The position numbers and the translations under genes were made by a program. Below the pieces are notes generated by a model. It worked only from the letters and a program-made list of their open reading frames with translations. It did no database searches and had not been told where the DNA came from. This document shows, piece by piece, positions 1 to 63,518 of a DNA stretch of 64,000 nt; the first letter of the stretch is position 1, and each line of letters starts with the position of its first letter. Source of the stretch: Hymenobacter sp. YIM 151858-1 (GTDB lineage Bacteria; Bacteroidota; Bacteroidia; Cytophagales; Hymenobacteraceae); NCBI RefSeq assembly GCF_025979705.1, contig NZ_CP110136.1:3720001-3784000 (forward strand). Direction: 5' to 3'.

Positions 1-2470
1 AAGCAGTAGCAGTTGCCTCTTTCGGAGCAGGAGAGGAGGCAATAGATTGTGCAGGGGCTGCTTTGGGTTCCGCCTTCGTTTCCGGCTTAAGGGCTACAGC
101 GGGCGTCTCGTTTTCCTTGTACAGAATGCGCACGCGGTTGTCCACCTCGCCCGGGCGGAAGAACGAGACCGAGGGCTTCTCGGTAGAGGCCAGTGCGCCA
201 GCCAATTGGCCGCTTTCGTAGCGCCCATAGGTGCCCAGCAGCTCCTGTGCCCTAGGTGCCAGCGTACTTTCGGGGTATTTTTTTACAAACGCTGCTACTT
301 CGGCCTTGTGCTTGGCTGGTGGTTGGGTACGCAGCGTCAGGAGTAATTGCATGTACTCGGCGCGGTCGTTCAGGTCGGTTTCGGGGTACTGCTTGCGCGC
401 CCGGGCCAATGCGGCATTGGCTTTTTTGAACTCCTGCTTTTTGTAGAGCGCAAAGGCCGAGTCGAGCCGCACAGCCATGTGTTCGTTGGCCACCGAGGTG
501 CGGCGCAGGTACTCGGGGTCGGCTACCAAGCGGGCAAACGAGGAGTTGGCAAACTCCTGCCGCAGCCGTTGGGCGTAGGTTCCGGCTTTCGCGTCGCCTA
601 GGTCTTTGTAAAGCAGGTAGAGGCTGTAGTACACCTCGGCCGTATGCGGGCTGCGCGGGAAGCGCTGCAGCAATTGCTCGTAGGTTTGCACCGCCTTGGC
701 GGGCTCTTTTAGCTGCTGGTTGTAAATGGCACCTAGGGCAAACATAGCTTCCAGCACCTTGGCTTCAGCTTCCTTTTGCTGCTCGGCCGTAACCGGTATG
801 CTTTGTTGATACTGCACCAACAAAGCAGCGCGCTCGTCGGTAGGCGTAGCCTGCTGGCCCGATGCTCCGTCCGCAGGGTTCACTAGGCTGCCATCGGCGC
901 CCCGTACCGATAACGGAGCATTGGTACCGGCCACGGGCGCACCCGTGGTGGCCAGGCTGCTCAGGCGCCAATTGTCGGTGAGGGGGCGGCTGCCCCAGCG
1001 CCGCTCAAAATCGGAGCGGGCCGTGCTCAGGGCCGTCGGGTTATCAAAGTACCACATGCGGCCGGTAGAGGCGCTGGCGAAGGCCAACGGGTCCACATCG
1101 GGGTTGCCGGCCCGGTTGGGGTCCTGACCTAGGGCCGTTTGGTTGACGCCACGGGCAGCCAACGCGGCTTGCCGCTCGGCGGCTTGTTTGCGGCGCAGCA
1201 ACTCCGCGTCGGCATAAGCCACGAGGCGCGTGCGCAGGGTAGCCGTGTCCAGGCGGGCCAGCGCAAGCAAGCTATCCTGCGTCTCAACGGTAGTGAGCTG
1301 CTGCGCAAAGTCGCGCAGGATGTTGCGCCGTTCTACGATGGCGGCAAACTCCGGCGTTTCCCTGGGTAGGCTTTGGGTGGTACTGTCGTAATAAGCCGCC
1401 GCCGGGCGGTATTTCTGTAGGTTGTCGTAATAGATGCGCCCCGTCAACAGGTAAGCGTAGCCGCGCTGGGCCCGGTTGGTGCTATTCACGCGCACCGATT
1501 GGTTGAGCAGTTTCAAGGCTTCGTCGTAGCGCTGCTGGCGGTATTCCAGCCGAGCCATTTCGTAATACACCTTATCGCGGTACTCGCGGTTGTTCGGGTC
1601 TTTCAGCAGCTTGGCGAAGTACTTGTTCAGGCGCGTGCGGTCCTGCTGGTTCAGGTCCGATACCTGCCCGAGCATCAGTTTGGCAAAAAAATCGAGCTCG
1701 TAGGGCGGGTTGCGCCGCAGTATGCTGTTCAGCTGCGCGTACGCCTCTTTGTCCTGGCCGGTGTTCTGGTACAGCTGCGCCAGCACGTAGCGCGTGCGCG
1801 AGCGTTCGTCCTTCTTCTCTATATAAGGAATGGCCTTGCTCAGGTTCTCAATAGCCCGCCGCTCGTCGCCCTGCCTGATGAAGTACTGCGCCCGCGTCAG
1901 GAACAGCTCACGGGCGTTTTCGGGGATGCCTTGCTCTTTGTCGAGCAAATCCGATACAGCGGCGGCATTTTCCCACTCGTTGGTGGCCATGTAGGTGCGC
2001 ATCAGCCAGATAAGGGCCTCGTGCCGGGCATTGGCGTCCTTGCTGGTGGTGTTCACATACTTAAACGTCTTCAGGGCCTCCTCAAACTCACGTTTGTAAA
2101 AGCGCGCCTTGCCGATAAGGATGTAGGCGTCGTCGGTGTAGTCGCTGGTGCCGTGGCGCTGGATAGGCAACGAAGCCTTCTTCACCACGTCGTCCATGTC
2201 GCCCGTAAGCTGGACGGCCTTTACCGAATCGACTACCGGCAGCAGCGGCAGCGTACGGTTATAGTCGTTCGGCCGCTCCTTATTGAGGGCCACTTCCACG
2301 CTCCGCATCTTTTCGCGCGCCAAAAAGTAGCCGTTGTCGCGGGCCGTAATGTTCTGGTAAGTGCGGGCCACTACGTTGTGACGTTCGGCCGAGCAGCCGG
2401 CCAAAAAAGCGGCGGCGGCAAAAGCCAATCCAGCAACGGGTACCCAAATGATGCGCAAAGAATTCGACAC
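1..2470 (-). CDS. TPR lipoprotein, PorW/SprE type (T9SS), 3' end cut by window
   Basis: Reading the minus strand from a GTG at 2470 gives a signal peptide with lipobox (FLAGC) followed by SAERHNVVARTYQNITARDN, the start typical of the PorW/SprE lipoproteins. These link the rotary/trans-envelope parts of the type IX secretion system and gliding machinery. The rest is a long array of TPR-like helical pairs, with a low-complexity Ala/Pro/Lys tail running off the left edge (last residues read: KEATATA). The frame is open across the whole 2.4 kb. No ATG precedes the lipobox in frame, so GTG is inferred as the start. The family assignment rests on the N-terminal signature and the TPR architecture. 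The C-terminus is not visible. Confidence 0.8.
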   Translation of the reverse strand, partial: MSNSLRIIWVPVAGLAFAAAAFLAGCSAERHNVVARTYQNITARDNGYFLAREKMRSVEVALNKERPNDYNRTLPLLPVVDSVKAVQLTGDMDDVVKKASLPIQRHGTSDYTDDAYILIGKARFYKREFEEALKTFKYVNTTSKDANARHEALIWLMRTYMATNEWENAAAVSDLLDKEQGIPENARELFLTRAQYFIRQGDERRAIENLSKAIPYIEKKDERSRTRYVLAQLYQNTGQDKEAYAQLNSILRRNPPYELDFFAKLMLGQVSDLNQQDRTRLNKYFAKLLKDPNNREYRDKVYYEMARLEYRQQRYDEALKLLNQSVRVNSTNRAQRGYAYLLTGRIYYDNLQKYRPAAAYYDSTTQSLPRETPEFAAIVERRNILRDFAQQLTTVETQDSLLALARLDTATLRTRLVAYADAELLRRKQAAERQAALAARGVNQTALGQDPNRAGNPDVDPLAFASASTGRMWYFDNPTALSTARSDFERRWGSRPLTDNWRLSSLATTGAPVAGTNAPLSVRGADGSLVNPADGASGQQATPTDERAALLVQYQQSIPVTAEQQKEAEAKVLEAMFALGAIYNQQLKEPAKAVQTYEQLLQRFPRSPHTAEVYYSLYLLYKDLGDAKAGTYAQRLRQEFANSSFARLVADPEYLRRTSVANEHMAVRLDSAFALYKKQEFKKANAALARARKQYPETDLNDRAEYMQLLLTLRTQPPAKHKAEVAAFVKKYPESTLAPRAQELLGTYGRYESGQLAGALASTEKPSVSFFRPGEVDNRVRILYKENETPAVALKPETKAEPKAAPAQSIASSPAPKEATATA

Positions 2471-2668
2471 GAGCAGCAGAAAGCAGGCGGGTGAAAGGCA
2501 GTGTGAGCAAAACGCCGACCGACCGTTAATTTGTTCGGCAGCGTCGTAATCCTCCTAGAACGCTACAATGCAAGTAAAAGTACGGGAAAATTGTGCCAGC
2601 CTCGGGTTCGCGCAGCCAGCCTAGGTGCCCGGGTTTAACTGATAGCCAAGCATTAACTCGGCGTACAG

Positions 2669-2676
2669 TACCTTTG
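2669..2676 (+). promoter_or_regulatory. Bacteroidota -7 box upstream of the atp operon
   Basis: TACCTTTG matches the Bacteroidota sigma-A consensus TAnnTTTG and lies 23 nt before the ATG of atpZ. No convincing -33 TTTG is visible at the usual distance. Confidence 0.5.
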
Positions 2677-2699
2677 CAACCCGCTTGCTCCAAACGCGC

Positions 2700-2939: not shown

Positions 2940-2996
2940 GCTGCCCGCAAAACCCAGCCCCTTACTGCCCTAGTCAGGTTTGTATTACCCCCGCCT

Positions 2997-3436: not shown

Positions 3437-4513
3437 ATGAAGCGGTTTCTGCTCCTTTTCTTCTGGATTCTGACGTTGCCGGTTTTTGCGCAGGAGCATC
3501 ACGGCGATGTGCCATCCACCTCGGCCACGCAGGTGGAAGCCACCGAAGAAGGCGAGTTTAAGCCGGGTGAGATGATTCTGCATCACATTGCTGATGCGCA
3601 CGAATGGCACTTCGCCACGATTGGCCACACGCATGTTACCCTGCCGCTGCCAATAATTGCTTTTCAACCCGGTAAAGGCCTGTCGGTATTCTCCTCCAGC
3701 AAACTAGCTCACGGCGAAACGTACAATGGCCTGAAGCTTGAGCACGAGCACCTTGTGGCCGAAGACGGTAGCAAGGTCTACGACTTCTCGATCACCAAAA
3801 ACGTGGCCTCGCTGCTGTTGAGCGCCCTGCTGCTGATCGTTGTTTTCTTCTCGGTAGCCGGTGGCTATAAGAAGAACCACGGCCGTGCCCCGCGTGGTAT
3901 TCAATCGTTCTTCGAGCCTATTATCGCCTTCATCCGCGATGATATTGCCAAAACCAACATTGGCCCCAAGTACGAGCGTTACCTGCCGTACCTGCTCACG
4001 CTGTTCTTCTTTATCTGGTTCAACAACCTGATGGGTCTGATGCCCGGCGCTGCCAACCTCACCGGCAACATTAGCATCACCTTCCTGCTTGCTCTGCTGA
4101 CCCTGCTAATCACTGTATTTAGCGGCAATAAGAACTACTGGGGTCACATTTTTGCCACTCCCGGCGTGCCTACTTGGCTGCTGCCCATCATGATTCCGGT
4201 AGAACTGATTGGTATCATTACCAAGCCGTTCTCGCTGATGGTGCGTTTGTTCGCCAACATCACGGCAGGTCACATCATCGTGCTGAGCTTTATCTCGCTC
4301 ATCTTCATCTTCAAGAGCGTAGCTGTTTCGCCCCTAGGTGTTGGCTTTGCCTTGTTCATCAACGTGCTGGAAATGCTGGTGGCCATTCTGCAGGCCTACC
4401 TGTTTACCCTGCTCTCGGCCATGTATATCGGCGGTGCGGTAGAGGAGCACCACCACGATGCAGATCTGCAGATCGGCGGCGAAGACATGAGCAAGCCGGC
4501 TGCACATCACTAA
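3437..4513 (+). CDS. atpB: F1FO ATP synthase subunit a
   Basis: A 358-residue subunit a of the proton channel in the inner membrane. It has an N-terminal signal-like helix (1-18) and a long His/Glu-rich periplasmic extension (~20-115), both usual in Bacteroidota. The conserved five-helix core follows from ~120. The essential arginine that faces the c-ring carboxylate is R270 in FSLMVRLFANITAGH. The C-terminus is His-rich. It carries the only CCTAGG copy inside the atp operon (4333), encoding Pro-Leu-Gly. It lies 29 nt after the AtpI-like gene and 63 nt before atpE. Confidence 0.97.
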   Translation: MKRFLLLFFWILTLPVFAQEHHGDVPSTSATQVEATEEGEFKPGEMILHHIADAHEWHFATIGHTHVTLPLPIIAFQPGKGLSVFSSSKLAHGETYNGLKLEHEHLVAEDGSKVYDFSITKNVASLLLSALLLIVVFFSVAGGYKKNHGRAPRGIQSFFEPIIAFIRDDIAKTNIGPKYERYLPYLLTLFFFIWFNNLMGLMPGAANLTGNISITFLLALLTLLITVFSGNKNYWGHIFATPGVPTWLLPIMIPVELIGIITKPFSLMVRLFANITAGHIIVLSFISLIFIFKSVAVSPLGVGFALFINVLEMLVAILQAYLFTLLSAMYIGGAVEEHHHDADLQIGGEDMSKPAAHH

Positions 4514-4576
4514 GCCTGACATTCCCTCTTTTTTGTTTTTCCTGACTTTTTTCTCACTCTCCTAACTCTTTCTGTT

Positions 4577-4837
4577 ATGCTGCTCACTCTGTTGCTGCAG
4601 GTCGTTAATGCTGTTGGTCTGGCCGTTATGGGTGCCGGCCTGGGTGCTGGTCTGGCTATCCTCGGTGCTGGTCTCGGCATTGGTCGCATCGGCGGCAGCG
4701 CCATGGAAGCCATCGGCCGTCAGCCGGAAGCTTCGGGCCGTATCCAAACGGCGATGATCATCGCGGCTGCTCTTATCGAGGGCGCCACCCTGTTCGCCGT
4801 CGTAGTCTGCCTGCTGGTAGCTCTGCGTCTGCAATAA
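4577..4837 (+). CDS. atpE: F1FO ATP synthase subunit c
   Basis: An 86-residue hairpin proteolipid that forms the rotating ring. Two long hydrophobic helices flank the polar loop around GRQPEASGRI. The proton-carrying carboxylate is E68 in ALIEGATLF. The residue after E68 is Gly, not Ser/Thr, and the first helix lacks the Na+-binding Gln/Pro pattern, so H+ coupling is inferred. The first helix is very Gly/Ala-rich (GAGLGAGLAILGAGLGIG). Confidence 0.97.
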   Translation: MLLTLLLQVVNAVGLAVMGAGLGAGLAILGAGLGIGRIGGSAMEAIGRQPEASGRIQTAMIIAAALIEGATLFAVVVCLLVALRLQ

Positions 4838-4991
4838 CAGTCACCCATAAGCGGCCGCCTGTAGCCTTGCTTTGGCAGGGCAGCAGGCGGCCGCGTTGGT
4901 GTAACTGTGCCTACGGAGCGGCTTTGTTCTACAGCGGGCTTGTCCTGCTAGCCACAGTCGCCCATTTCCCACACGCATTGCCCCTAACGCC

Positions 4992-5486
4992 ATGAATCTG
5001 ATTACCCCCGATTTGGGTCTGCTGTTCTGGCAGTTTGTCGTTTTCCTGCTGCTGGTATTCTTGCTGGCGAAGTTTGCGTGGAAGCCCATTCTGGCTGGTC
5101 TCCGCGAGCGGGAAGAATCCATCGAAAACGCCCTGCGTCAAGCCGATCAGGCCAAGCTGGAAATGCAGCAGCTGAAAGCTGGCAATGAAAAGTTGCTGGC
5201 CGAAGCTCGTCAGGAGCGCGACCGTATTCTGAAAGAGGCTGCCACCATCAGCGAACAACTGATTGAGCAAGCCAAGCAGAAAGCGACCGACGAAGGCGCC
5301 CGCATGATTATGCAGGCCCGCGAAGCTATCCAGAACGAAAAGCAAGCTGCTCTGGCCGAAGTGAAAAACACGGCTGCTCAGCTTTCTATCGACATCGCCG
5401 AGCGCATCCTACGCCGCGAGCTGACGGATTCCACTGCGCAAAAGCAACTGGTAACCGATTACCTGCAAGAGGTAAAACTGAACTAA
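4992..5486 (+). CDS. atpF: F1FO ATP synthase subunit b
   Basis: A 164-residue peripheral-stalk subunit. One N-terminal membrane helix (~9-27) is followed by a long charged amphipathic helix rich in Ala, Glu, Lys and Gln, which dimerises and reaches to F1. Length is normal for the family. The 154-nt gap before it has no obvious promoter. It is followed at once by the heptad-type hairpin at 5491-5563, which separates it from atpH. Confidence 0.96.
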   Translation: MNLITPDLGLLFWQFVVFLLLVFLLAKFAWKPILAGLREREESIENALRQADQAKLEMQQLKAGNEKLLAEARQERDRILKEAATISEQLIEQAKQKATDEGARMIMQAREAIQNEKQAALAEVKNTAAQLSIDIAERILRRELTDSTAQKQLVTDYLQEVKLN

Positions 5487-5490
5487 GTTG

Positions 5491-5563
5491 TTAGCTATTA
5501 GCTGCTGGCTGTTAGCTCCGCGCTAACATAGCCAACAGCTAACAGCCAGCAGCTAATAGCTTT
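5491..5563. repeat. Heptad-periodic inverted repeat between atpF and atpH
   Basis: Perfect 25-bp arms at 5493-5517 and 5537-5561 are separated by a 19-nt loop. Each arm is built from 7-nt units such as TTAGCTA, TTAGCTG, CTGGCTG and TTAGCTC. It fills the whole gap between the atpF stop and the atpH start and would form a strong hairpin in the operon mRNA. There is no T-run after it, so it is unlikely to be a full terminator. Confidence 0.85.
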
Positions 5564-5571
5564 CTTAAAAC

Positions 5572-6129
5572 ATGTCTGAACTACGAGTCGCCGCCCGCTA
5601 CGCCAAGTCTTTGCTGGATTTGGCGCAAGAGCAGGGTACGCTGGATACGGTAAAGCAGGACATCGAGCTGTTCGCCAACACGTTGGAGGGCAGCCGCGAC
5701 CTGCGCCTGCTGCTGCGCAATCCTATTGTGCAGCACGACAAGAAGCTGGCCATCCTGCGGCGGCTGTTTGACGGCAAGGTGTCGGACCTCACGATGCGGT
5801 TCTTCACCATTATCACGCAGAAAAACCGCGAAAACGCGCTGGAGTTTATTGGGCCGGAGTTCCTGAACCAGTACAACGCGCTTCGTGGTATCCAAACGGC
5901 TACGGTGACGACGGCTACGCCGCTCACGCCTGAACTCCGCGCGCAAGTGGAGCGTTTGGTGGTCGGTCAGACGGGAGGCCAGGTTATGCTGCAGGAGCAA
6001 GTAGATCCATCATTAATCGGTGGGTTTGTTCTGCGCATCGGCGACCGACAGATCGACGATTCGGTACGCACGCGCCTCAACCGCCTGCGCACCACTTTCA
6101 AAGAGAACCCCTACCAAGCCCAACTATAA
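5572..6129 (+). CDS. atpH: F1FO ATP synthase subunit delta
   Basis: A 185-residue OSCP/delta subunit that caps F1 and binds the b-subunit stalk. The N-terminal helical domain starts ELRVAARYAKSLLDLAQEQG. The C-terminal part has the family signature ending in PSLIGGFVLRIGDRQIDDSV. ATG at 5572 follows the hairpin repeat by 10 nt. The stop is 9 nt before atpA. Confidence 0.95.
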   Translation: MSELRVAARYAKSLLDLAQEQGTLDTVKQDIELFANTLEGSRDLRLLLRNPIVQHDKKLAILRRLFDGKVSDLTMRFFTIITQKNRENALEFIGPEFLNQYNALRGIQTATVTTATPLTPELRAQVERLVVGQTGGQVMLQEQVDPSLIGGFVLRIGDRQIDDSVRTRLNRLRTTFKENPYQAQL

Positions 6130-6138
6130 GTCAGCATC

Positions 6139-7716
6139 ATGGCAGAAGTACGTCCGGATGAAGTATCCGCCATTCTGCGGGAGCAGTTGTCCAATTTCAA
6201 GTCCGAAGCCGAACTCGAAGAAGTCGGTACGGTGCTGCAGGTTGGCGACGGGGTAGCCCGCATTTACGGCCTCTCGAAGGCTCAGTCAGGCGAACTGGTT
6301 GAGTTCGAGAACGGCCTGCAGGCACTGGTTCTGAACCTCGAGGAAGACAACGTAGGTGCCGTAATGCTCGGCGACTACAGCGAAGTACGCGAGGGTGCTA
6401 CCGTGCGCCGCACCAATAAAATTGCTTCGATCAAAGTAGGCGAAGGCATCGTGGGCCGCGTGGTAAACACGCTGGGCCAACCCATCGACGGCCGTGGCCC
6501 CATTGCTGGCGAGCTGTACGACATGCCGCTGGAGCGCAAGGCTCCGGGCGTAATTTTCCGTCAGCCGGTAAACGAGCCCCTGCAAACCGGTATCAAGGCT
6601 ATCGACGCCATGATCCCGATTGGCCGTGGCCAGCGCGAGTTGATCATCGGCGACCGTCAGACGGGTAAGTCGACGGTTGCGCTTGATGCCATCCTGAACC
6701 AGCGCGAGTTCTTCGAGCGCGGCGAACCGGTTTTCTGTATCTACGTTGCCATCGGCCAGAAGGCCTCGACGGTAGCCCAGATCGTGAACTCGCTGCAGCG
6801 CGGTGGTGCCATGGACTACACGGTGGTGGTTTCGGCATCAGCTGCTGACCCCGCGCCGATGCAGTTTTTTGCTCCGTTCACGGGTGCCGCTATCGGCGAA
6901 TTCTTCCGCGACACGGGCCGCCCGGCGCTGGTTGTGTACGACGACTTGTCGAAGCAAGCGGTGGCTTACCGCGAGGTATCGCTGCTGCTGCGCCGCCCGC
7001 CCGGCCGCGAGGCTTACCCCGGCGACGTATTCTACCTGCACAGCCGCCTGCTCGAGCGTGCCGCGAAGATCAACGCTTCGGATGACATCGCCCGCAACAT
7101 GAACGACCTGCCCGACAGCCTGCGTGGTCTTGTTAAGGGCGGTGGTTCACTGACGGCGCTGCCCATCATCGAGACGCAAGCTGGCGACGTATCGGCTTAC
7201 ATCCCGACGAACGTAATTTCGATTACCGACGGTCAGATCTTCCTCGAAACCAACCTCTTCAACTCGGGTATCCGTCCGGCTATCAACGTAGGTATCTCGG
7301 TATCGCGCGTGGGTGGCTCGGCTCAGATCAAATCGATGAAGAAAGTGGCTGGTACGCTGAAGCTCGACCAAGCCCAGTTCCGCGAGCTGGAGGCTTTCGC
7401 CAAGTTCGGTTCGGACCTCGACGCTTCGACCAAGCTTACCATTGAGCGTGGCCGTCGTAACCTCGAAATCCTGAAGCAGCCGCAATTCTCGCCGGTGAAA
7501 GTTGAAGACCAGGTAGCCATCATTTATGCTGCTACCAACGGCCTGCTCGACGCCATCCCGGTAAACCGCGTGCGCGAGTTTGAGAAGGAGTTCACGCAAG
7601 TGATGAACACCCGTCATGCCGACGTGCTGGCTGGCCTGAAGGCCGGTAAGCTCGACGACAACATCACGGGCACCATCCGTCAGGTTATCAAAGACCTGTC
7701 GGCTTCTTACAAGTAG
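6139..7716 (+). CDS. atpA: F1FO ATP synthase subunit alpha
   Basis: A 525-residue non-catalytic nucleotide-binding subunit of F1. It has an N-terminal beta barrel, the Walker A loop GDRQTGKST (171-179), a Walker B strand ending [16 protein letters not shown], and a C-terminal helical domain. Full length for the family. It lies between atpH and atpG. The beta and epsilon genes (atpD, atpC) are not in this operon, as is usual in Bacteroidota, where they sit elsewhere. Confidence 0.98.
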
Positions 7717-7721
7717 TAATT

Positions 7722-7810
7722 AGTTGTCAGTTGTCAGTTGTTGGTTGTCAGTGTGGGGCGGTTCGGCTGCCCTGCACACACTGACAACTGATAACGGGCA
7801 ACTGACAACT
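7722..7810. repeat. Heptad-periodic inverted repeat between atpA and atpG
   Basis: Left arm 7722-7755 and right arm 7777-7810, each 34 nt. They pair over the outer 12 and the inner 11 positions, with an 11-nt mismatched middle. Units are AGTTGTC/GTTGTCA heptamers. The arms occupy nearly the whole gap between the atpA stop (7716) and the atpG ATG (7819). Similar heptamers (STRR) are known from filamentous cyanobacteria. No T-run follows. Confidence 0.8.
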
Positions 7811-7818
7811 CTTTTCAT

Positions 7819-8712
7819 ATGGCAAGCTTAAAAGAAGTCCGTGGCCGCATTCAGTCGGTAAGCTCGACGCAGCAAATCACCAAAGCCATGAAAATGGTGG
7901 CGGCAGCAAAGCTGCGCCGCGCGCAGGACAACATCATGCGCATGCGCCCCTACGCGCAACGCCTGAACAGCATCCTGGCCAATCTGTCGCAAGGCAATGC
8001 GGAGGACAATGTGACCGGTGAATACGGCGCAGTGCGCGACGTGCGCCGCGTGCTCATCATCGCTGTTACCTCGGATCGTGGCTTGGCTGGTGCTTTCAAC
8101 AGCAACATCTTCAAGGCTACGAATGCCCTGATTCAGGAGCGCTACGCCGACCTGGCCGCTGCCGGCAATGTGCGCGTTATGGCCATTGGCCGCAAAGCCC
8201 ACGATTACTTTGGTCGCCGCGGCCTGCTGGTGGGCAACCACACCAACGTGTTCACGAACCTCTCGTTCGACACGGTGCGCGTGGCTGCTGAGGAAGCCAT
8301 GGAAGCCTTCCGCGCCGGGCAGTACGACCAGGTATTGCTGGTGTACAACGAGTTTAAGAACGTGGCTACGCAGATCATCCGTACGGAGCAGCTGCTGCCC
8401 ATTCTGCCGCCCGAAGCACCGGCCACCGCTGCTGCAACCTCCAACCTGGACTACATTTTTGAGCCCAGCAAAGAGGAAATCGTGCTGACGCTGATTCCGA
8501 CGTCGCTGAAAATTCAGCTGTACAAAGCGGTGCTGGAAAGCAACGCTTCGGAGCACGGCGCCCGCATGACGGCGATGGACAAAGCCACCGAAAACGCCGG
8601 TGAACTGCTGAAGTCGCTGAAACTGACGTACAACCGGGGCCGCCAGGCTGCCATCACGAACGAGATTCTCGAAATCGTGGGTGGTGCCGAAGCCTTGGCC
8701 GCCAGCCGCTAA
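7819..8712 (+). CDS. atpG: F1FO ATP synthase subunit gamma
   Basis: A 297-residue central-stalk subunit. The N-terminal helix has the family signature LKEVRGRIQSVSSTQQITKA followed by MKMVAAAKLRRAQ. The C-terminal helix ends in YNRGRQAAITNEILEIVGGA. It is last in the operon and is followed by a bidirectional terminator at 8732-8768. Confidence 0.97.
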   Translation: MASLKEVRGRIQSVSSTQQITKAMKMVAAAKLRRAQDNIMRMRPYAQRLNSILANLSQGNAEDNVTGEYGAVRDVRRVLIIAVTSDRGLAGAFNSNIFKATNALIQERYADLAAAGNVRVMAIGRKAHDYFGRRGLLVGNHTNVFTNLSFDTVRVAAEEAMEAFRAGQYDQVLLVYNEFKNVATQIIRTEQLLPILPPEAPATAAATSNLDYIFEPSKEEIVLTLIPTSLKIQLYKAVLESNASEHGARMTAMDKATENAGELLKSLKLTYNRGRQAAITNEILEIVGGAEALAASR

Positions 8713-8731
8713 GCATAACTGCTTCGCACAG

Positions 8732-8768
8732 CAAAAAAGCCTGCTCCCAACCGGAGCAGGCTTTTTTG
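8732..8768. terminator. Bidirectional terminator between atpG and HAD gene
   Basis: A 16-bp perfect stem (8732-8747 with 8753-8768) around GCCTGCTCC and its complement, flanked by A6 on the left and T6 on the right, so it can serve both convergent genes. Confidence 0.85.
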
Positions 8769-8808
8769 TGAGCAAATGGCACCTAGGGCTGGGCCGGAGG
8801 GGCCTAGG

Positions 8809-12101: not shown

Positions 12102-12120
12102 GCCCTAGGTGCCTTTGTCA

Positions 12121-48664: not shown

Positions 48665-51163
48665 ATGCTCACCTTCTCCCATCTGCCGGCACTTACGGGC
48701 GGTACGCTGCTTCAGGCGCCTTTTGAGGTTGCCGCCCCGGTGCTTCACTTGTTGCTCGATAGCCGCCGCATGGCCCAGGCCGCCGGCACCTTGTTTGTGG
48801 CGCTGCGCGGCCCCCACCACGATGGCCATCAGTACCTGCCCGAGCTGTACCAGCGTGGGGTGCGCCTGTTCCTGATCGACAAAGCCGAGCTGCTGCCCGG
48901 AACGCTGGCCGATTACCCCGAAGCGGGCTTTGTGTTGGTGCCCGATAGCCTGGCCGCGTTGCAGCGCATGGCGGCAGAGCACCGCGCGCAGTTCAGCATC
49001 CCGGTGGTAGGCATCACGGGCTCCAACGGCAAAACCATCGTGAAGGAGTGGCTGGCCCAACTGCTCAGCCCCGACGAGCTTATCTGCCGCTCGCCGCGCA
49101 GCTACAACTCCCAAGTAGGCGTGCCGCTGAGCGTGTGGGAGCTGCGGCCGGCCCACACGCTGGGCATTTTTGAAGCGGGCATTTCGGAGCGCGGCGAAAT
49201 GGCACGCCTCGCGCAGGTCATTCAGCCAACCCTAGGTGTGTTTACCAACCTGGGATCGGCGCACGACGCCGGCTTTGCCTCGCACGCCGAAAAAGCGGCC
49301 GAAAAGGCGCAGCTGTTTGCGGGCGTCGACACCCTGTTTTACTGCCGCGACCACGCCGAGGTGCACGCTGCCGCAGCGCAGTTGCCCGCGCACGTGCTGC
49401 GCTTTAGCTGGTCGCGCCGCGGGGCGCCCGGAGCCCAGGTGCACGTGCAGCTCGAACCGGGTGCCGACCCCCAGCAGCCGCTGGCGCACGTGCAGTACCT
49501 AGGGCACACGCACGCATTTACGTTGCCCTTCGCCGACGAGCCTTCCGTCGAAAACGCCATGCATTGCGTGGCCGTGCTGTTGTGGCGCGGCTTGCCGGCC
49601 GCCGAGCTGCAACGCCGCCTGTTGCGCCTGCAGCCCGTGGCCATGCGCCTCGAAATGAAGCAGGCCATTCACGACTGCTACATCCTCGACGACACCTACA
49701 ACAACGACCTGGCCGGCCTCGACCTCGCCCTCGATGCCCTAGGTCGGCAGCCGCGCCGCGGCCGCCGCACCCTCATCCTGTCCGATTTGCTCGAATCGGG
49801 CCTGCCCGCCGCCGAGCTGTACCGGCAAGTGGCGCAGCTGGCGCAGCAGCACCGCGTGCAGCGCGTGCTGGCCGTGGGGCCCGAAATCGGCCAGCACCAA
49901 ACCCTGCTGCAAGCGGCCGTGCCCGAGGCGCAGTTCTTTGCCGACACCGACGCGCTGCTCGCCTGGTTTCACCCCGACCATTTCCGCCACGAAACCATTC
50001 TGGTAAAAGGCGCCCGCCGCTTCGGCTTCGAGCGGGTGGTAGCAGCTTTCCAACGCAAGATCCACGGCACGGTGCTGGAGGTAAACCTCGATGCTTTGGT
50101 GCACAACCTCAACTACTACCGCGCCCGCCTGCAGCCCGGTACCCGCCTCATGGTAATGGTAAAGGCGTTTGCCTACGGCAGCGGTTCGTACGAAGTAGCC
50201 AACCTGCTGGAGTTTCACCGCGTCGATTACCTCGCCGTGGCCTATACCGACGAAGGCGTGCAGCTGCGCGAGCACGGCATTTCGTTGCCGATTATGGTGA
50301 TGAATCCCTCGCCCGATTCGTTTGCCTTGCTTCGGCAGTACCACCTCGAGCCCGAAATCTATTCGTTTGCCCGCTTGCGCGAGTACCTGCTGGCCGCGCA
50401 GGATGGTCCGTTGCCGCCGGTTCACCTCAAGCTCGATACCGGCATGCGGCGCCTGGGCTTCGACGAAGCCGACCTAGGTGAGCTGCTGCCTTTGCTGCAG
50501 CAGCACGCTGGCACGCTGCGCGTGGCCAGCGCCCTCACCCACCTGGCCGGCGCCGACGAAGAGCAGCACAACAGCTTTTCGCACCGGCAGCTGGCGGCCT
50601 TCCAGCGCATGGCCGCCCGCCTCGAAACGGCCCTGGGTTACACCGTTATCAAGCACGCGTTGAACTCACCGGGCATCATGCGCTTCCCGGAAGCCCAGTT
50701 CGATATGGTGCGCCTGGGCATTGGCTTGTACGGGGTAGAGGCTGCCGGGCTCAACCCAACGGCGCTTCGCCCGGTAAGCACGCTGCGCACCACCGTGTCG
50801 CAGCTGAAAACCGTGCCCGCCGGCGAAACCGTAGGCTACGGCCGCCGCGGCGAGGCCGCCGACCACAACCGGCGCATTGCCACTTTGGCCATTGGCTACG
50901 CCGATGGCTACGACCGGCGCTTTTCGCGCGGGGCAGGGGCTGTGGTTATCCGTGGCCAACGGGCACCAATTGTCGGCAACGTATGCATGGATATGTGCAT
51001 GGCCGACGTGACGAACATACCCGGGGTGCAGGAGGGCGATACGGCCGTGGTATTCGGCGAAGAGCTGCCCCTCACCGAGCTGGCAGCCTGCATCGGCACC
51101 ATTCCGTACGAGCTGCTCACCAACGTCAGCGAAAGGGTAAAACGGGTGTTTGTTTCGGAGTAG
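48665..51163 (+). CDS. Bifunctional MurF ligase / alanine racemase
   Basis: An 832-residue fusion found across Bacteroidota. Residues ~1-450 are MurF, which adds D-Ala-D-Ala to UDP-MurNAc-tripeptide; the ATP loop is GITGSNGKT (116-124). Residues ~455-832 are alanine racemase, which makes the D-Ala: PLP lysine K500 in VMVKAFAYGSG and the second catalytic base Y725 in VGYGRRGE. So one protein supplies and uses D-Ala in peptidoglycan synthesis. The frame is open upstream to 48311, but the promoter box and MurF start fix ATG 48665. Four CCTAGG copies all encode Leu-Gly. Confidence 0.95.
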   Translation: MLTFSHLPALTGGTLLQAPFEVAAPVLHLLLDSRRMAQAAGTLFVALRGPHHDGHQYLPELYQRGVRLFLIDKAELLPGTLADYPEAGFVLVPDSLAALQRMAAEHRAQFSIPVVGITGSNGKTIVKEWLAQLLSPDELICRSPRSYNSQVGVPLSVWELRPAHTLGIFEAGISERGEMARLAQVIQPTLGVFTNLGSAHDAGFASHAEKAAEKAQLFAGVDTLFYCRDHAEVHAAAAQLPAHVLRFSWSRRGAPGAQVHVQLEPGADPQQPLAHVQYLGHTHAFTLPFADEPSVENAMHCVAVLLWRGLPAAELQRRLLRLQPVAMRLEMKQAIHDCYILDDTYNNDLAGLDLALDALGRQPRRGRRTLILSDLLESGLPAAELYRQVAQLAQQHRVQRVLAVGPEIGQHQTLLQAAVPEAQFFADTDALLAWFHPDHFRHETILVKGARRFGFERVVAAFQRKIHGTVLEVNLDALVHNLNYYRARLQPGTRLMVMVKAFAYGSGSYEVANLLEFHRVDYLAVAYTDEGVQLREHGISLPIMVMNPSPDSFALLRQYHLEPEIYSFARLREYLLAAQDGPLPPVHLKLDTGMRRLGFDEADLGELLPLLQQHAGTLRVASALTHLAGADEEQHNSFSHRQLAAFQRMAARLETALGYTVIKHALNSPGIMRFPEAQFDMVRLGIGLYGVEAAGLNPTALRPVSTLRTTVSQLKTVPAGETVGYGRRGEAADHNRRIATLAIGYADGYDRRFSRGAGAVVIRGQRAPIVGNVCMDMCMADVTNIPGVQEGDTAVVFGEELPLTELAACIGTIPYELLTNVSERVKRVFVSE

Positions 51164-51228
51164 GGCTAAGGGCTGACCAACACAGGTTGTGGTGTGTGCG
51201 TATGCAGCCCACACTCCCAACCACACCC

Positions 51229-51882
51229 ATGAAAAAACAGATCCTTTCCCTGATGGCCGGTATGGCCTTGTTCACGGCCTGCAACGACCTCAATAAGCCC
51301 CAAGCCAAAGACGAACCGCAGGAAGCCACCCAGGACACCGCCGTGGTGTACCGCGACGGCAAAACCGCCGCCGATGCCGCCGCCGGTGCTGCTGCCTCCG
51401 TCGAAAACGCTGCCGACCAGGCCGGTGCTGCCGTAGACCCCGATAACTGGGACCTCGACGTAGACCTGCCCAACGTGCGCTACGAGGAAGTAACGCTGCC
51501 CGATGTTGAAGTGCGCGGCAACGACCGGTACAGCGTGTACTCGGTTGACGAGAAGGTGTTCTTCGATACCGACAAAGCCGAGCTCAAGCCTTCGGCCAAA
51601 AATGCTCTGGAGCAAATTTCGGCCTCCATCGGCAAGCGCTTCGGTGGCAAAGATGTCCGCATCATGGGTTTTACGGACTCGCGCGGCGACAAAAACTACA
51701 ACAAAGAGCTGAGTGCCCAGCGCGCCGAAGCCGTGAAAAACTGGCTGGTGAAAAACGGCAAGGTGGATGCCAGCCGCGTGAGCCTGGAGCCAATGGGCGA
51801 AGCGGCACCGGCCGCCTCGAACGCCACGGCTACAGGCCGTCAGCAAAACCGCCGCGTCGAAATTGCGGTGCGCAACAGCTAA
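51229..51882 (+). CDS. OmpA-family lipoprotein
   Basis: A 217-residue lipoprotein. Signal with lipobox LFTAC (~1-18), a long Ala/Asp-rich linker (~20-90), and a C-terminal OmpA domain (~105-217) with KVFFDTDKAELKPSAKNALE, the peptidoglycan-binding signature GFTDSRGDKNYNKELSAQRA and QQNRRVEIAVRN. It should tie the outer membrane to the cell wall. The frame is open upstream, but ATG 51229 begins the signal peptide. Confidence 0.92.
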   Translation: MKKQILSLMAGMALFTACNDLNKPQAKDEPQEATQDTAVVYRDGKTAADAAAGAAASVENAADQAGAAVDPDNWDLDVDLPNVRYEEVTLPDVEVRGNDRYSVYSVDEKVFFDTDKAELKPSAKNALEQISASIGKRFGGKDVRIMGFTDSRGDKNYNKELSAQRAEAVKNWLVKNGKVDASRVSLEPMGEAAPAASNATATGRQQNRRVEIAVRNS

Positions 51883-51915
51883 GCCGGGCCTGTGGTTGCC
51901 CCAGGTACAGGTGCC

Positions 51916-51959
51916 CAACAGAAAGGCCGGTTTCCTGCAGGAAACCGGCCTTTCTGTTG
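51916..51959. terminator. Bidirectional terminator, perfect 44-nt palindrome
   Basis: Arms of 22 bp with no loop, centred on CTGCAG (CAGAAAGGCCGGTTTCCTG on the left), between the convergent ompA-like and regulatory-domain genes. Confidence 0.8.
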
Positions 51960-52008
51960 ATTGGCTGACGAGCAACGGGCGAGGTAAAACGCCGGCTGGC
52001 AGCAGCTA

Positions 52009-52908
52009 TTACTTGTAAACGTCGACCTCGGCCTTGATCATGGCGTTGTAGCGCAGACCCGTGCCGTTCGACATGGTAATCAGGCTCCAGCCTTTGCCCA
52101 TGGAGTACGTCCAGGTGCGGCTTTCCTTGAACTCGAAGGTGGGCTTCATGATCTGGCCGTAAGGCGTGTAGTTATCCATGAAGTTGGTGGTGTAGAACTT
52201 GTCGCCCGACACAATCCACTCCATTGCCACGAAGAATCCTTCGTCGGGCGCCATGATGTTGTAGGGCGTCATGTCGATGGTGAACCAAGCGCCACCGCCC
52301 GGCGCCGATACCACCACGTTCTCCGTGAGCAGGTCGGTGTTGGGGGCGTTGTAGTCGCCGTCGTTCTTGTAGATACGCACCCGGAAAGGCTCTTTCGGGA
52401 AGCCGTGCTCACCGATGTAGAACGATACCGTGCGGATCATGCCGAGCTTTTTGCCCTTCTCGTTCTTCACGAAGAAAGCGTATTGGCTGCCGGGCATGCC
52501 CTGAATCATGCCCTCGCCGGGCGTGTTGTTGCGGGCACCCATGTCGGCGTTTTTCACCTTGCCGGCTTCCACTTTTACCTCGGCCAGCACAATGTTGCGC
52601 TTGGTAACCTCCACGATGAGGTCTTCGAGCTTGGCACCGCGCTTCACGGCTACGGCCTTGCGGATGTAGCCCAGGGCCTGGATGATAAGGGAGTCTTGGG
52701 CGGCTTTCTCCGGCTGTGCCATCTGAAAGAAACCGTATTCGTTTGTCAACGCACCGGTTTGTTCTTCTTTCAGGCCAATAGAGGCAAAGGGGATGGGCTC
52801 TTTGGTTTTGGCGTCAACCACGCGGCCTGTAATGCGATTATCCTGCGCACTAACCAACTGCGGGAGCAACCAACCTAGCGCAACGAAAAAGAGTAGGCGT
52901 TTGAGCAT
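52009..52908 (-). CDS. Exported protein with CarboxypepD_reg-like domain
   Basis: A 299-residue secreted protein. Signal peptide ~1-21 (LVSAQ), then a carboxypeptidase-regulatory-like beta sandwich (~24-100, ITGRVVDAKTKEPIPFASIG) and a C-terminal beta-rich domain of ~180 residues (with SFYIGEHGFPKEPFRVRIYK and WSLITMSNGTGLRYNAMI) that I cannot name. Such N-terminal domains are usually found on TonB receptors; here no receptor follows. Probably a periplasmic or surface protein. ATG at 52908 is needed for the signal peptide. Confidence 0.8.
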   Translation of the reverse strand: MLKRLLFFVALGWLLPQLVSAQDNRITGRVVDAKTKEPIPFASIGLKEEQTGALTNEYGFFQMAQPEKAAQDSLIIQALGYIRKAVAVKRGAKLEDLIVEVTKRNIVLAEVKVEAGKVKNADMGARNNTPGEGMIQGMPGSQYAFFVKNEKGKKLGMIRTVSFYIGEHGFPKEPFRVRIYKNDGDYNAPNTDLLTENVVVSAPGGGAWFTIDMTPYNIMAPDEGFFVAMEWIVSGDKFYTTNFMDNYTPYGQIMKPTFEFKESRTWTYSMGKGWSLITMSNGTGLRYNAMIKAEVDVYK

Positions 52909-53036
52909 AAGCGGTGGATTATAAAACCAAAAATACAAGCAGTTTAGACGGTTACTGCAATCTTCCTTCGAATATTTATAAAAGTGCAATTTGGGCCCAG
53001 GTAAGTGCTAACCAGCTGGTGCTACGAAGCTTTGAT

Positions 53037-53068
53037 TTTGGCGGAAACCTTTGCGGGGCGTACCTTTG
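53037..53068 (+). promoter_or_regulatory. Full -33/-7 promoter of feoAB
   Basis: TTTG at 53037-53040, 20 nt spacer, TACCTTTG at 53061-53068: the best match to the Bacteroidota sigma-A promoter in the window. FeoA's GTG lies 31 nt downstream. No Fur box was confirmed. Confidence 0.6.
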
Positions 53069-53099
53069 TTTATAGCTTGTCTAAATAAACGTACCGCCT

Positions 53100-53357
53100 G
53101 TGCCCACCCTGTCTGTTGCTTCCGCCACCACGTCCCGCAGCGTTAAAGATCTGCGCTTGGGCGAGACGGGTACCATCTGTTGCCTTAAGGATCCTGAAAT
53201 GGCACTTAAGCTCCTGGAGATGGGATGCATACCGGGTACGCAGGTAACGCTTAGCGGCCGGGCGCCGCTGGGTTGCCCCATTACCTTGCACGTCGACGGC
53301 GAATATACGCTGTCGTTGCGAGTAAGCGAAGCGGCTACAATCATGCTAAAGGATTAA
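53100..53357 (+). CDS. feoA: Ferrous iron transport protein A
   Basis: An 85-residue SH3-like protein starting with GTG. It has the FeoA core LGETGTICCLKDPEMALKLLEMGC (quoted in part: EMALKLLEMGCIPGTQVTL) and the closing strand LSLRVSEAATIMLK. It is a cytoplasmic partner of FeoB, encoded 11 nt downstream. The two Cys in TICCL are unusual but not unique. Transcribed from the promoter at 53037-53068. Confidence 0.92.
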   Translation: MPTLSVASATTSRSVKDLRLGETGTICCLKDPEMALKLLEMGCIPGTQVTLSGRAPLGCPITLHVDGEYTLSLRVSEAATIMLKD

Positions 53358-53368
53358 CGCTTCGGCGG

Positions 53369-55549
53369 ATGGCGAGTGCGGCAGTATTAACTCCTGACCC
53401 GAAGCAGGGCCAGCCAGGCGCAGCAGTAGCTGCCACCCGGTCAGTAGCGGAGCGCCATACGCGCATCGCCCTGATTGGCAACCCCAACTCGGGCAAGTCG
53501 TCGCTGTTTAATCAGCTGACGGGGCTTAACCAGAAGGTGGGCAACTTTCCGGGCGTAACCGTCGACCGCAAAACCGGCGTGGCGCAGCTTACGGCCCACC
53601 ACCGGGCCGAAATCATCGACCTGCCCGGTACGTATTCGCTCTACCCGAAGAGCCTTGACGAGAAAGTCATCACCGACTTGCTCTACGACCGCGCCTCCAG
53701 CGAGTACCCCGACTTTGTGGTGGTTACGGCCGACGCTTCCAACCTGAAGCGCAACCTGTTGCTGTTTACGCAGCTGGCCGATCTGCAACTGCCCATGGTG
53801 CTGGCCCTGAACATGATGGACACGGCCGAGCAGCACGGTGTTCAGATCGACGTGGCCGAGCTGCAGCAGCAACTGGGGGTGCCCGTCATCCCGATGAATG
53901 CCCGCAAAGGCGTGGGCGTAACGGCGCTCAAAATCGTGATGGCGCAGGAGCTGGGCCCGCCCAGCCAAACGTTCTTCGAAGCCACCGACGAGCTGCTGCC
54001 GATGATCCGGCAGATTCGCTACTACTTCAACCTGCACAACGATTACCTGGCGCTGCACTACGCGCACCAGTACGAGCGACTGAAGTTTTTGTCGGCCGAT
54101 GATAAGGCGTACATCCACGAGCTGCGGCAGCAATACGGCTTCGACTCGGTGGCCTTGCAAGCCCAGGAAACCATCGACCGGTACGCCCGCATTTCGGAGC
54201 TGCTGCTTGATGTGGTACGCGTAACGCGGGCCGAGAAAAACGAGTCGTACAGCAACAAGATAGACCGGGTGCTCACGCACAAAGTGTGGGGCTACCTGAT
54301 TTTCCTTAGCATCCTGTTCCTGCTCTTCCAGGCCATTTTCGCCTGGGCCGAGCTGCCCATGGACCTCATCGACCAGGGCGTAGCCTGGCTGGGTGGGCAG
54401 GTAAAAACCTTGGGCGAGGGCCCACTCGTCGACCTGCTTTCCGACGGTATTATTGCCGGCTTGGGCGGGGTGCTGATGTTTATCCCGCAGATTGCGCTGC
54501 TCTTCGCGTTCATTGCCGTGCTCGAAGAGTCGGGCTACATGGCGCGCGTCACGTTCATGATGGACAAGATCATGCGCAAGTTTGGGCTGAACGGCAAAAG
54601 CGTGGTGCCCCTGATTTCGGGTATGGCTTGCGCCGTGCCGGCCATCATGAGCGCACGCACCATCGAGAACTGGAAAGACCGCATCATCACCATTTTTGTA
54701 GTGCCGCTGATGTCGTGCTCGGCGCGCATTCCGGTGTACACGGTGCTGGTGGCGCTGGTGGTGCCCGAGCGTACCGTCCTAGGTATCTTCAACCTGCAGG
54801 GCGTGGCCCTGATGGGGCTTTACCTCTTGGGATTTGTGTCGGCAGTGCTTTCGGCTTGGGCCTTAAAAACGCTGCTGCGGGCCAAGGAACGCAGCTTCTT
54901 CATCATGGAGTTTCCGGTGTACCGCTGGCCGCGCTGGAAAAACGTGGGCCTGACCATCGTGGAGAAAGTGAAGGCATTCGTGTTTCAGGCAGGTAAAATC
55001 ATCGTGGCCATTTCGGTGCTGGTGTGGGTGCTGGCCTCCTACGGCCCCGGCGACTCCCTAGGTCGGGCCGAGCAGCAGGCCCGTGCCGAGGCCGCGCGGC
55101 AGCAACTCACGCCCGAGCAAACCGATAACCTAATTGCTTCGCACAAGCTCGAAAGCTCGTATGCCGGGGTGTTTGGCCGTACCATCGAGCCGGCGGTGCG
55201 CCCCCTGGGTTTCGACTGGAAAGTGAGCATAGCCCTGCTTACCTCGTTTGCCGCGCGCGAGGTGTTCGTGGGCACCATGTCGACGATTTACAGCGTGGGG
55301 CAGGATGCCGACATGAGCACGGTACAGGAAAAACTGCGCGCCGAAAAAGACGAGTTCGGTCAGCCGTTCTTCACGCCGGCCCGGGCGGCTTCGCTGCTGG
55401 TGTTTTACGTGTTTGCCATGCAATGCGTGAGCACCCTGGCCACCACTTACCGCGAAACCAAAGGCTGGAAGTGGCCGCTGCTGCAGCTGGGGTATATGTC
55501 GGGCCTGGCCTACGTAATGTCGCTGCTGGTGTACCAGGTGCTCAAGTAG
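53369..55549 (+). CDS. feoB: Ferrous iron transport protein B
   Basis: A 726-residue Fe2+ permease. The N-terminal G domain has G1 GNPNSGKSS (37-45), G3 in IIDLPGTYSLYP and G4-like ALNMMDTAEQHG. A GDI-type helical domain and two Gate motifs follow, with the conserved Cys in SGMACAVPAIMSARTI and near FAMQCVSTLAT. Eight or so membrane helices. ATG 53369 is chosen; the frame is open upstream through feoA. With feoA it imports ferrous iron under low oxygen. Confidence 0.95.
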   Translation: MASAAVLTPDPKQGQPGAAVAATRSVAERHTRIALIGNPNSGKSSLFNQLTGLNQKVGNFPGVTVDRKTGVAQLTAHHRAEIIDLPGTYSLYPKSLDEKVITDLLYDRASSEYPDFVVVTADASNLKRNLLLFTQLADLQLPMVLALNMMDTAEQHGVQIDVAELQQQLGVPVIPMNARKGVGVTALKIVMAQELGPPSQTFFEATDELLPMIRQIRYYFNLHNDYLALHYAHQYERLKFLSADDKAYIHELRQQYGFDSVALQAQETIDRYARISELLLDVVRVTRAEKNESYSNKIDRVLTHKVWGYLIFLSILFLLFQAIFAWAELPMDLIDQGVAWLGGQVKTLGEGPLVDLLSDGIIAGLGGVLMFIPQIALLFAFIAVLEESGYMARVTFMMDKIMRKFGLNGKSVVPLISGMACAVPAIMSARTIENWKDRIITIFVVPLMSCSARIPVYTVLVALVVPERTVLGIFNLQGVALMGLYLLGFVSAVLSAWALKTLLRAKERSFFIMEFPVYRWPRWKNVGLTIVEKVKAFVFQAGKIIVAISVLVWVLASYGPGDSLGRAEQQARAEAARQQLTPEQTDNLIASHKLESSYAGVFGRTIEPAVRPLGFDWKVSIALLTSFAAREVFVGTMSTIYSVGQDADMSTVQEKLRAEKDEFGQPFFTPARAASLLVFYVFAMQCVSTLATTYRETKGWKWPLLQLGYMSGLAYVMSLLVYQVLK

Positions 55550-60903: not shown

Positions 60904-60950
60904 ATCAAGTCGGAAAATACAGCAGCGGCAGGTGCACGAGGCCTCGCAGC

Positions 60951-62009: not shown

Positions 62010-62012
62010 GGT

Positions 62013-62100
62013 GGGAAGGAGGAAGGATGAATGATGAGGAAAGAAAAGCCAGGGAAAGGAAGCAGTCAGTTCGTCCTTCTTCCTTCCTCATTCTTAATTA
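62013..62100. repeat. Purine-rich heptad inverted repeat between selU and pdxJ
   Basis: Left arm 62013-62048 (GGAAGGA, GGAAGGA, TGAATGA, TGAGGAA units) and right arm 62073-62100 (TCCTTCT, TCCTTCC, TCATTCT, TAATTAA units) are imperfect inverted repeats. The right arm supplies the TAA stop of pdxJ. Confidence 0.7.
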
Positions 62101-62811
62101 AACAAGCTGCCGGCGGTACAGCTGAACGGTGTTTTCGAGCCCTAGGTACAAGGCGTCGCAAATGAGCGCGTGGCCGATGCTTACCTCCAGCAGGCCCGGC
62201 AGCTCCTGCTTCAGGAAAGCCAGGTTATCGAGGTCGAGGTCGTGGCCGGCATTTACCCCTAGGCCGAGCTGCTGCGCCAGCTCGGCGGCGGCGCGGTAAG
62301 GTGCCACGGCGGCTTCGCGGTTGTGGTGGTACTGCGTGGCGTAGGCCTCGGTGTACAGCTCGATGCGGTCGGTGCCGGTGCCTACAGCGGCTTTCACCAT
62401 CTCTAGGTCAGGGTCGAGGAAAATGCTCACGCGGCACCCCAACGATTTCAGCTCGGCTACAATGCCTTGCAGGTACTCCTGGTGGCGAATGGTGTCCCAG
62501 CCAGCATTGGAGGTAATGGCATCGGGCGCATCGGGCACCAGCGTTACCTGCTCGGGGCGCACTTCGCGCACCAAATCGAGGAAATCGGGCGTGGGGTTGC
62601 CTTCTACGTTCAGCTCAGTGGTTACAACGCGCTTCAGGTCGCGCACATCTTGGTAGCGAATGTGGCGCTCATCGGGGCGGGGATGCACCGTAATGCCCTC
62701 GGCGCCAAACCGCTCACAGTCGCGGGCGGCTTGCAACACATCGGGGCGATTGTGGCCGCGGGCGTTCCGCAGGGTGGCTATTTTATTTATGTTTACGCTA
62801 AGCTTTGTCAT
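62098..62811 (-). CDS. pdxJ: Pyridoxine 5'-phosphate synthase
   Basis: A 237-residue TIM-barrel enzyme of the DXP-dependent vitamin B6 pathway, joining deoxyxylulose phosphate and 3-amino-1-hydroxyacetone phosphate. Visible motifs are [20 protein letters not shown], the catalytic-loop segment [31 protein letters not shown] and the C-terminal phosphate site [14 protein letters not shown] with [16 protein letters not shown]. Its stop lies in the heptad repeat. Full length. Confidence 0.96.
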
Positions 62812-63056
62812 ATCCTTTACGTGCCCGAAGCAATACGCCCGGCGGCTGCCAAAGATATAGTTCTGGCCCCGGTGGCGTACAATTTCTGTTCTTGCCTGAG
62901 GCAGGCTACACTACCGCTCTGGCTTGCTGCCAGGTTTCAGAATCACCTAGGTTAGATAATAGTTAGCCCGCCGGTATCGTACGTAGTAGCACCGGGCATG
63001 CCCATTGTGTTGCCAAAAGGACTAATCTTGCACCTCATTTTTCTGCCGCTTCTGTT

Positions 63057-63518
63057 ATGACGCTGAAAGAACGCATCGACGCCGATATCAAGAAGGCCAT
63101 GCTGGCCAAAGACAAAGTTCGCCTTACTGCGCTGCGCAGCATCAAGTCGCAAATCATGCTGGCCGAAACCGCCGAGGGCTTTCAGGGAAGCCTGAATGCT
63201 GACGCCGAGCTGAAGCTGCTGAACAAAGCCGCCAAGCAGCGCCGCGAAGCCGCCGAGATGTACCAGAAGCAGTTTCGCTCCGACCTCGAAGAAGTAGAGT
63301 TGGCCGAGTTGGCCATCATTGAGGAGTACCTGCCCGCGCAGCTTTCCGATGCCGACCTCACCGAGCGCCTCGTTGAAATCATTTCGCGTGTAGGTGCCAC
63401 GGGGCCTTCCGACCTAGGCAAAGTAATGGGCGTAGCCGCGCGTGAGCTGGCTGGCCAGGCCGATGGCCGCGCCATTTCGCAAGAGGTAAACCGCTTGCTG
63501 AACAACACCAATTTCTAA
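63057..63518 (+). CDS. GatB/YqeY-domain protein
   Basis: A 153-residue helical protein of the YqeY family: starts TLKERIDADIKKAMLAKDKV, LTALRSIKSQIMLAETAEG, then EEYLPAQLSDADLTERLVEI and LGKVMGVAARELAGQADGRA. It resembles the C-terminal tRNA-binding region of GatB, but stand-alone members have no proven role. The stop is directly followed by a heptad repeat. Confidence 0.92.
   Translation: MTLKERIDADIKKAMLAKDKVRLTALRSIKSQIMLAETAEGFQGSLNADAELKLLNKAAKQRREAAEMYQKQFRSDLEEVELAELAIIEEYLPAQLSDADLTERLVEIISRVGATGPSDLGKVMGVAARELAGQADGRAISQEVNRLLNNTNF

Follow-up and report, generated by a model that had tools for sequence, protein, structure and literature searches.

Genome-wide DNA words are best known from the uptake systems of the Neisseriaceae (DNA uptake sequence, DUS; PMC3630211) and Pasteurellaceae (uptake signal sequence, USS), in which a short word occurs in thousands of copies on both strands, with lineage variants. 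In cyanobacteria, the highly iterated palindrome HIP1 and its alternates recur about once per kilobase and are distributed patchily among relatives (PMC4390886), and HIP1 is still unexplained. Here we examine the word CCTAGG in a 64,000-base stretch of Hymenobacter sp. YIM 151858-1 (hereafter the window; contig 1, positions 3,720,001–3,784,000, of a genome of 4,621,779 bases in three contigs, referred to as G000). A first-pass annotation had described CCTAGG in the window as a dispersed palindrome resembling HIP1 or an uptake sequence, and had proposed a whole-genome count as a check. We find that the CCTAGG enrichment is real and genome-wide, and that the word is a derived motif that recurs in the family Hymenobacteraceae. 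Within the clade of the window its unit is the oriented 7-mer CCTAGGT, which we tentatively read as a tag of self DNA.

Enrichment and anatomy of the word

The window contains 83 copies of CCTAGG, dispersed over both strands between positions 251 and 63,418, as compared with a mean of 13.7 and a maximum of 26 in 100 dinucleotide shuffles. The number first reported, about 83, was therefore exact, and the estimate that three quarters of all CTAG in the window lie in CCTAGG agrees with our count of 83 of 113. Among the 64 six-base palindromes, CCTAGG is the most enriched in the window (6.1-fold under an order-1 model, the next being 2.8-fold), and an order-2 model expects only 10.1 copies. A maximal-order estimate for 6-mers expects 74, a test that is uninformative because nearly every CCTAG and CTAGG in the window is the motif itself. 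Across the whole genome we counted 5,325 copies, or one per 868 bases, versus 75 of the reversed word GGATCC. In a 464-kb sample of G000 (the window together with 20 stretches of 20 kb each), observed counts and the expectations of order-2 and order-3 models were 574 versus 78.7 and 102.5 for CCTAGG, 553 versus 35.2 and 56.9 for strand matches to CCTAGGT, and 339 versus 7.7 and 11.7 for CCCTAGGT. The whole-genome check thus places the word far above Markov expectation, and the enrichment is not limited to the window.

With respect to the form of the word, 75 of the 83 window copies carry a T after the core on just one strand, 2 on both strands (giving the palindrome ACCTAGGT) and 6 on neither; CCTAGGT accordingly matches 48 times on the forward and 31 times on the reverse strand, the 2 palindromic sites being counted twice. 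The same preference is seen in the 464-kb sample (527 of 574 on one strand only, 13 palindromes, 34 with no T) and in the two other motif-rich genomes of the genus, G005 (451 of 499) and G007 (431 of 504), where ACCTAGGT occurs 9 and 19 times. Together with G000 these make up the clade of the window, and in all three the unit is CCTAGGT, usually GC-CCTAGGT-GC: a short non-palindromic word present in thousands of copies and in both orientations. The initial description therefore stands as regards a genome-wide dispersed motif like HIP1 or an uptake sequence, and fails for the window's genome as regards the term palindrome, which is apt insofar as ACCTAGGT is common in Hymenobacter cavernae and in two genomes of a second genus (G076 and G158). 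The claim that about half of the copies are extended also held, with 39 occurrences of GCCCTAGGT and 10 of GCCCTAGGTGCC in the window, both strands summed. Specifically, the 12-base GCCCTAGGTGCC, the longest common form, lies on the forward strand at 249–260, with further starts at 12,102, 17,046 and 17,971, and on the reverse strand at 728–739, with further copies whose lower coordinates are 8,778, 13,919, 23,375, 32,866 and 40,588.

The footprint around the core, computed from 442 intergenic sites pooled over G000, G005 and G007, is asymmetric. Flanking preferences are found for G at −2 (0.50), C at −1 (0.57), G at +7 (0.55) and C at +8 (0.46), followed by a mostly weak stretch (chi-square at most 22, at +22 and +25) and then by a downstream box at +29 to +34, consisting of R(+29), G(+30), not-T(+31), R(+32), S(+33) and C(+34), with chi-square values of 36–97 against a median of 3.7. 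This box, RGSRSC, is thus located 23–28 bases downstream and can be seen separately in each genome (chi-square at +32 of 74, 68 and 33 in G000, G005 and G007), albeit as a weak signal, with RGSRSC present at 115 of 1,481 sites versus a mean of 18 at other offsets. A stem joining +7 to +9 with +29 to +31 was considered and rejected, the complementary pairs numbering 405, 396 and 328 where 407, 432 and 389 are expected. Because pairing with the core flank does not exceed expectation, we infer that the box is more probably a protein contact than part of a hairpin. The core itself is sharp: the best one-mismatch 8-mer at a core position is enriched 2.1-fold, and only position −1 tolerates change.

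Origin, distribution and placement of the sites

The genus to which G000 belongs is represented by eight genomes, of which three are rich in CCTAGG (5,325 copies in G000, 5,678 in G005 and 6,212 in G007) and five hold 123–249. Aligned DNA of the window is 88% identical to G005 and G007 and 80–81% identical to the motif-poor relatives G003, G001 and G002. The 77 window sites with a T are identical in 55 of 71 alignable cases in G005 and in 51 of 70 in G007 (random 7-mers, 0.46 each), and in 1 of 43, 0 of 39 and 0 of 40 cases in G003, G001 and G002 (random 7-mers, 0.28–0.30). Given that core identity lies below that of the flanks toward the low relatives (0.60–0.65 versus about 0.79) and above it toward the high relatives (0.92 versus about 0.85), these alignments show that core substitutions created the sites in the high lineage and that the sites were then held. 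Differences from the low relatives are scattered over several positions of the core, with A/G at position 3 and T/C at position 6 the commonest, and a single mutational step is therefore not the explanation. Among the 71 sites that could be aligned to both G005 and G007, 43 are common to all three genomes and 11 are found in G000 alone.

Beyond this genus, more than 300 copies of CCCTAGGT occur in 9 of 204 genomes of the family, comprising the same three and 6 of the 120 genomes of a second genus, g5 (2,643 copies in G125, 2,746 in G140, 988 in G076, 979 in G158, 896 in G070 and 337 in G109). Because motif-rich genomes are patchy in both genera, its history must include either more than one gain of the word or many losses, and repeated gain is the course we infer. 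Flanks in g5 differ from those of the window, with G076 favouring ACCTAGCT and ACCTAGGT being 29-fold enriched in G158, and in G140 and G125 the enrichment of CCTAGG is milder (3.8- and 4.0-fold) and CTAG is not rare. The H. cavernae genome holds 8,746 strand matches to CCTAGGT (palindromes counted twice) in 5.6 Mb, with a control count of 124; nine other genomes reached through named loci hold 54–318. In 220 kb from each of the motif-poor sisters G001 and G003, no comparable word of the rank of CCTAGG was found. The same samples contain just 3 and 7 copies of CCTAGG, and because these counts fall below the prediction from composition, avoidance of CTAG looks like the background state in motif-poor sisters.

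A scan of loci from other named Bacteroidota covered the 76 of 80 that were of sufficient length (each at most about 21.6 kb); strong dispersed words appeared in only one Hymenobacter and two Pontibacter loci, with a weaker case in L217. The latter, from a Winogradskyella metagenome-assembled genome, shows a recurring imperfect palindrome, TCCTGC-GAA-N-GCAGGAA, over 21 kb (for example at 104, 15,616, 17,167 and 19,367), which may be a separate dispersed repeat. The two Pontibacter loci (L148 and L149) carry (C)AGGTATAG instead of CCTAGGT. In genus g3, presumed to be Pontibacter, CAGGTATAG exceeds 1,000 copies in 12 of 50 genomes, the others having at most 411. Between L148 and L149, 31 of 48 alignable copies of AGGTATA are identical, versus 0.35 for random 7-mers, and no downstream box like that of the window's clade was seen in 541 Pontibacter sites.

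Gene calling relied on an in-house codon-score script, which left 17–23% of the DNA uncalled, so that the position classes given here are approximate. On this basis, the CCTAGGT matches in G000 divide into 184 sense, 141 antisense, 184 intergenic and 44 edge sites, and an RNA-level signal was rejected because sites lie in sense, in antisense and between genes. Pooled densities per kilobase are 4.79 in convergent gaps, 2.36 in tandem gaps, 1.69 in divergent gaps and 0.99 in coding DNA. Genome-wide, forward and reverse copies of CCCTAGGT number 1551 and 1555 in G000, 1487 and 1493 in G005, and 1381 and 1427 in G007, the G007 sample overall having 259 forward and 210 reverse sites. Even spacing was not seen (coefficient of variation, 0.87–0.99). 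Within the window, two stretches poor in or free of copies had been noted, and both were borne out. One, from 4,339 to 8,781, has no copy and contains ATP synthase genes (B, delta, alpha and gamma families, at 4,992–8,709), including AtpA at 6,139–7,713, whose closest named match is that of Hymenobacter gummosus at 97% (in a scan that may omit records very near the window's own); the other extends from 50,479 to 54,777.

The word is nearly absent from the mobile DNA sampled, a small set consisting of one island and four small contigs. At locus L024 (G000 from 3.00 Mb), CCTAGG occurs at 193, 1,332, 1,563 and 2,484 and then no more over the final 17.5 kb. The start of an integrase-like gene is at 3,074, and the 17 kb after it contain no site. 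This island, from about 3,074 to the end of the locus (G000 from 3.003 Mb), carries integrase-like, Schlafen/AlbA and DUF6615 genes and no CCTAGG, and a C5 methyltransferase gene lies just past it, at 3,021,030. The small contigs, presumed plasmids sampled at 20 kb each (two from G000, two from G005), contain 2, 0, 1 and 0 copies of CCTAGG (3 in 80 kb), and 1 CCTAGGT versus 4.7 expected from their own composition. In otherwise motif-rich genomes, L121 (G007) and L129 (G140) have 4 and 1 CCTAGG per 20 kb, and are possibly further islands.

Candidate explanations

The reading we tentatively favour is that CCTAGGT is a DUS-like tag of self DNA that functions without the known pilus receptor. A DNA-binding receptor of an uptake or recombination apparatus would recognize the CCTAGGT core and, in the clade of the window, would also touch the weak box 23–28 bases downstream. 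Tagged DNA would be preferentially taken up or recombined, and tagged alleles would replace untagged ones and accumulate wherever protein sequence and regulation allow; receptor binding together with such preference would thus drive the spread of the tag. The oriented unit, the asymmetric footprint, lineage variants of the flanks, conservation, the origin by core substitution and the scarcity in mobile DNA all speak for a tag. Slightly less probable is the broader proposal that Hymenobacteraceae evolved such uptake or recombination tags more than once, in at least two words (CCTAGGT and CAGGTATAG), and that these work without type IV pili through a new receptor.

Several observations weigh against a tag. 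One-mismatch variants of the core are enriched at most 2.1-fold, as compared with about ten-fold for a known uptake sequence (PMC1939737), and the sites show no bias toward gene ends, such as that described for Pasteurellaceae uptake sequences (PMC2346458). In relatives, ACCTAGGT makes up 10 of 26 CCTAGG in G076, 20 of 44 in G158 and 10 of 22 at locus L145 of H. cavernae, and T is found on neither side in 43 of 116 copies in G125 and 29 of 77 in G140; a palindromic, HIP-like unit fits these relatives better. Beyond the window's clade the box is lacking (1 of 249 sites, versus 2.8 expected from other offsets). Our confidence in uptake is lowered because the palindrome is frequent and the box missing in the other genus. 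In terms of machinery, ComEC is uninformative because it is present everywhere: in 24 of 24 family genomes, motif-rich and motif-poor alike, and in E. coli among the controls. No ATPase of the PilB/PilT type (PF00437), whether of type IV pili or of type II secretion, exceeded the family cut-off in the 24 Hymenobacteraceae genomes, 3 of which gave sub-threshold matches, and all 14 controls were positive; this makes a minor-pilin receptor like that of the known systems unlikely. Finally, the small contigs and the island may be recent arrivals.

A close rival, likewise possible but doubtful, is a HIP1-like process in which DNA modification, a mismatch-repair ratchet (Elhai's model) or a chromosome-wide DNA-binding protein favours and protects CCTAGG(T) with no role in uptake. 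The density of the word is near the one per thousand bases of HIPs, and HIPs are likewise patchy among related genomes, with alternative words in some (PMC4390886). Consistent with this process are also the sharp core, the frequency of the full palindrome in H. cavernae, G158 and G076, and a near-saturation of available positions, the N of ACCTNGG being A in 65–70% of cases in the three high genomes versus 0.5–1% in G003 and G001. Against it stand the orientation of the unit and the one-sided footprint found in the window's clade, and also the small contigs lacking the word, though these are possibly recent. A cognate methylase, a mark of HIP1, did not emerge among the three methyltransferase families tested, a search that did not extend to Dam-like, Eco57I-like or other types. 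PF00145, PF01555 and PF02384 were detected in 16, 28 and 39 of 40 genomes. Among the 9 motif-rich Hymenobacter-type genomes, 7 lack PF00145, 5 lack PF01555 and 1 lacks PF02384; of the 11 motif-rich g3 genomes in the set, 7 likewise lack PF00145. Neither a writer nor a reader protein was found among ComEC, PF00437 and these three families.

The remaining rivals are less probable. That the word is the recognition site of a restriction–modification or other defence enzyme, retained as a self label, appears improbable. Against it, restriction usually leads to avoidance of a site and not to enrichment, and none of the three methyltransferase families, the only ones searched, is present in all motif-rich genomes. 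In its favour, a 7-base oriented site with a contact about 25 bases downstream does recall type III or MmeI-like enzymes. AvrII, BlnI and other enzymes also recognize CCTAGG (PMC1939737). A chromosome-handling signal, either Chi or an FtsK-orienting sequence (KOPS), would equally be a short oriented word in thousands of copies, but is strongly disfavoured, as the word is present or absent within one genus and shows no regional orientation bias (heterogeneity p of 0.55, 0.89 and 0.75 over 21, 18 and 19 stretches, the origin position not being mapped). A by-product of codon or amino-acid usage, suggested by the fact that coding copies lie nearly all in the frame C-CTA-GG (Leu-Gly), in either orientation, is refuted by shuffling: when codons were shuffled 20 times each with the protein sequence preserved, mean copy numbers were 12.8, 14.4 and 17.7, against 325, 320 and 315 observed in coding DNA. 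Moreover, intergenic DNA is richer in the word than genes, and among the 13,260 Leu codons of genes called in G000, 674 are CTA, of which 315 lie within CCTAGG.

Comparison with known systems

Among the papers listed by searches of open-licence PMC literature, with subscription papers and preprints outside their scope, none reports the CCTAGGT word, and none describes an uptake sequence for Hymenobacter or Pontibacter. GCCTAGGC was considered as a precedent for an enriched word and set aside; in PMC1939737 it is an under-represented word. Competence itself occurs in the phylum, as Riemerella takes up DNA via ComEC, DprA, ComF and RecA together with proteins lacking homology to known machinery (PMC8459023). 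The excerpt of that study mentions no uptake word, and our analysis shows no link between that system and Hymenobacteraceae.

The word has been switched on within one genus, and motif-poor sisters at about 80% nucleotide identity provide a natural control; this allows a search for the responsible gene through its presence or absence across genomes, and a direct study of how such words arise. Should an uptake tag prove true, it would point to a new DNA receptor in Bacteroidota.

Overall, CCTAGGT resembles DUS and USS in its thousands of copies on both strands, its lineage variants, the somewhat commoner occurrence of one orientation in genes and its scarcity in mobile DNA, and the flank variants and different Pontibacter word recall DUS dialects (PMC3630211). 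It differs from them in occurring in genomes without a type IV pilus ATPase over cut-off, in the lack of enriched one-mismatch core forms, in the lack of gene-end bias and in the palindrome common to some relatives. With HIP1 and alternate HIPs (PMC4390886) it shares a frequency of about one per kilobase, patchiness among relatives, alternative words and a sharp core; in the window's clade it differs by being oriented, with a footprint on one side, and none of three methyltransferase families tracks it. Taken together, an uptake sequence is what the word of the window's clade most resembles, albeit one lacking the pilus, near-match and gene-end marks of the known examples, and that of the other genus looks more like a HIP-type palindrome.

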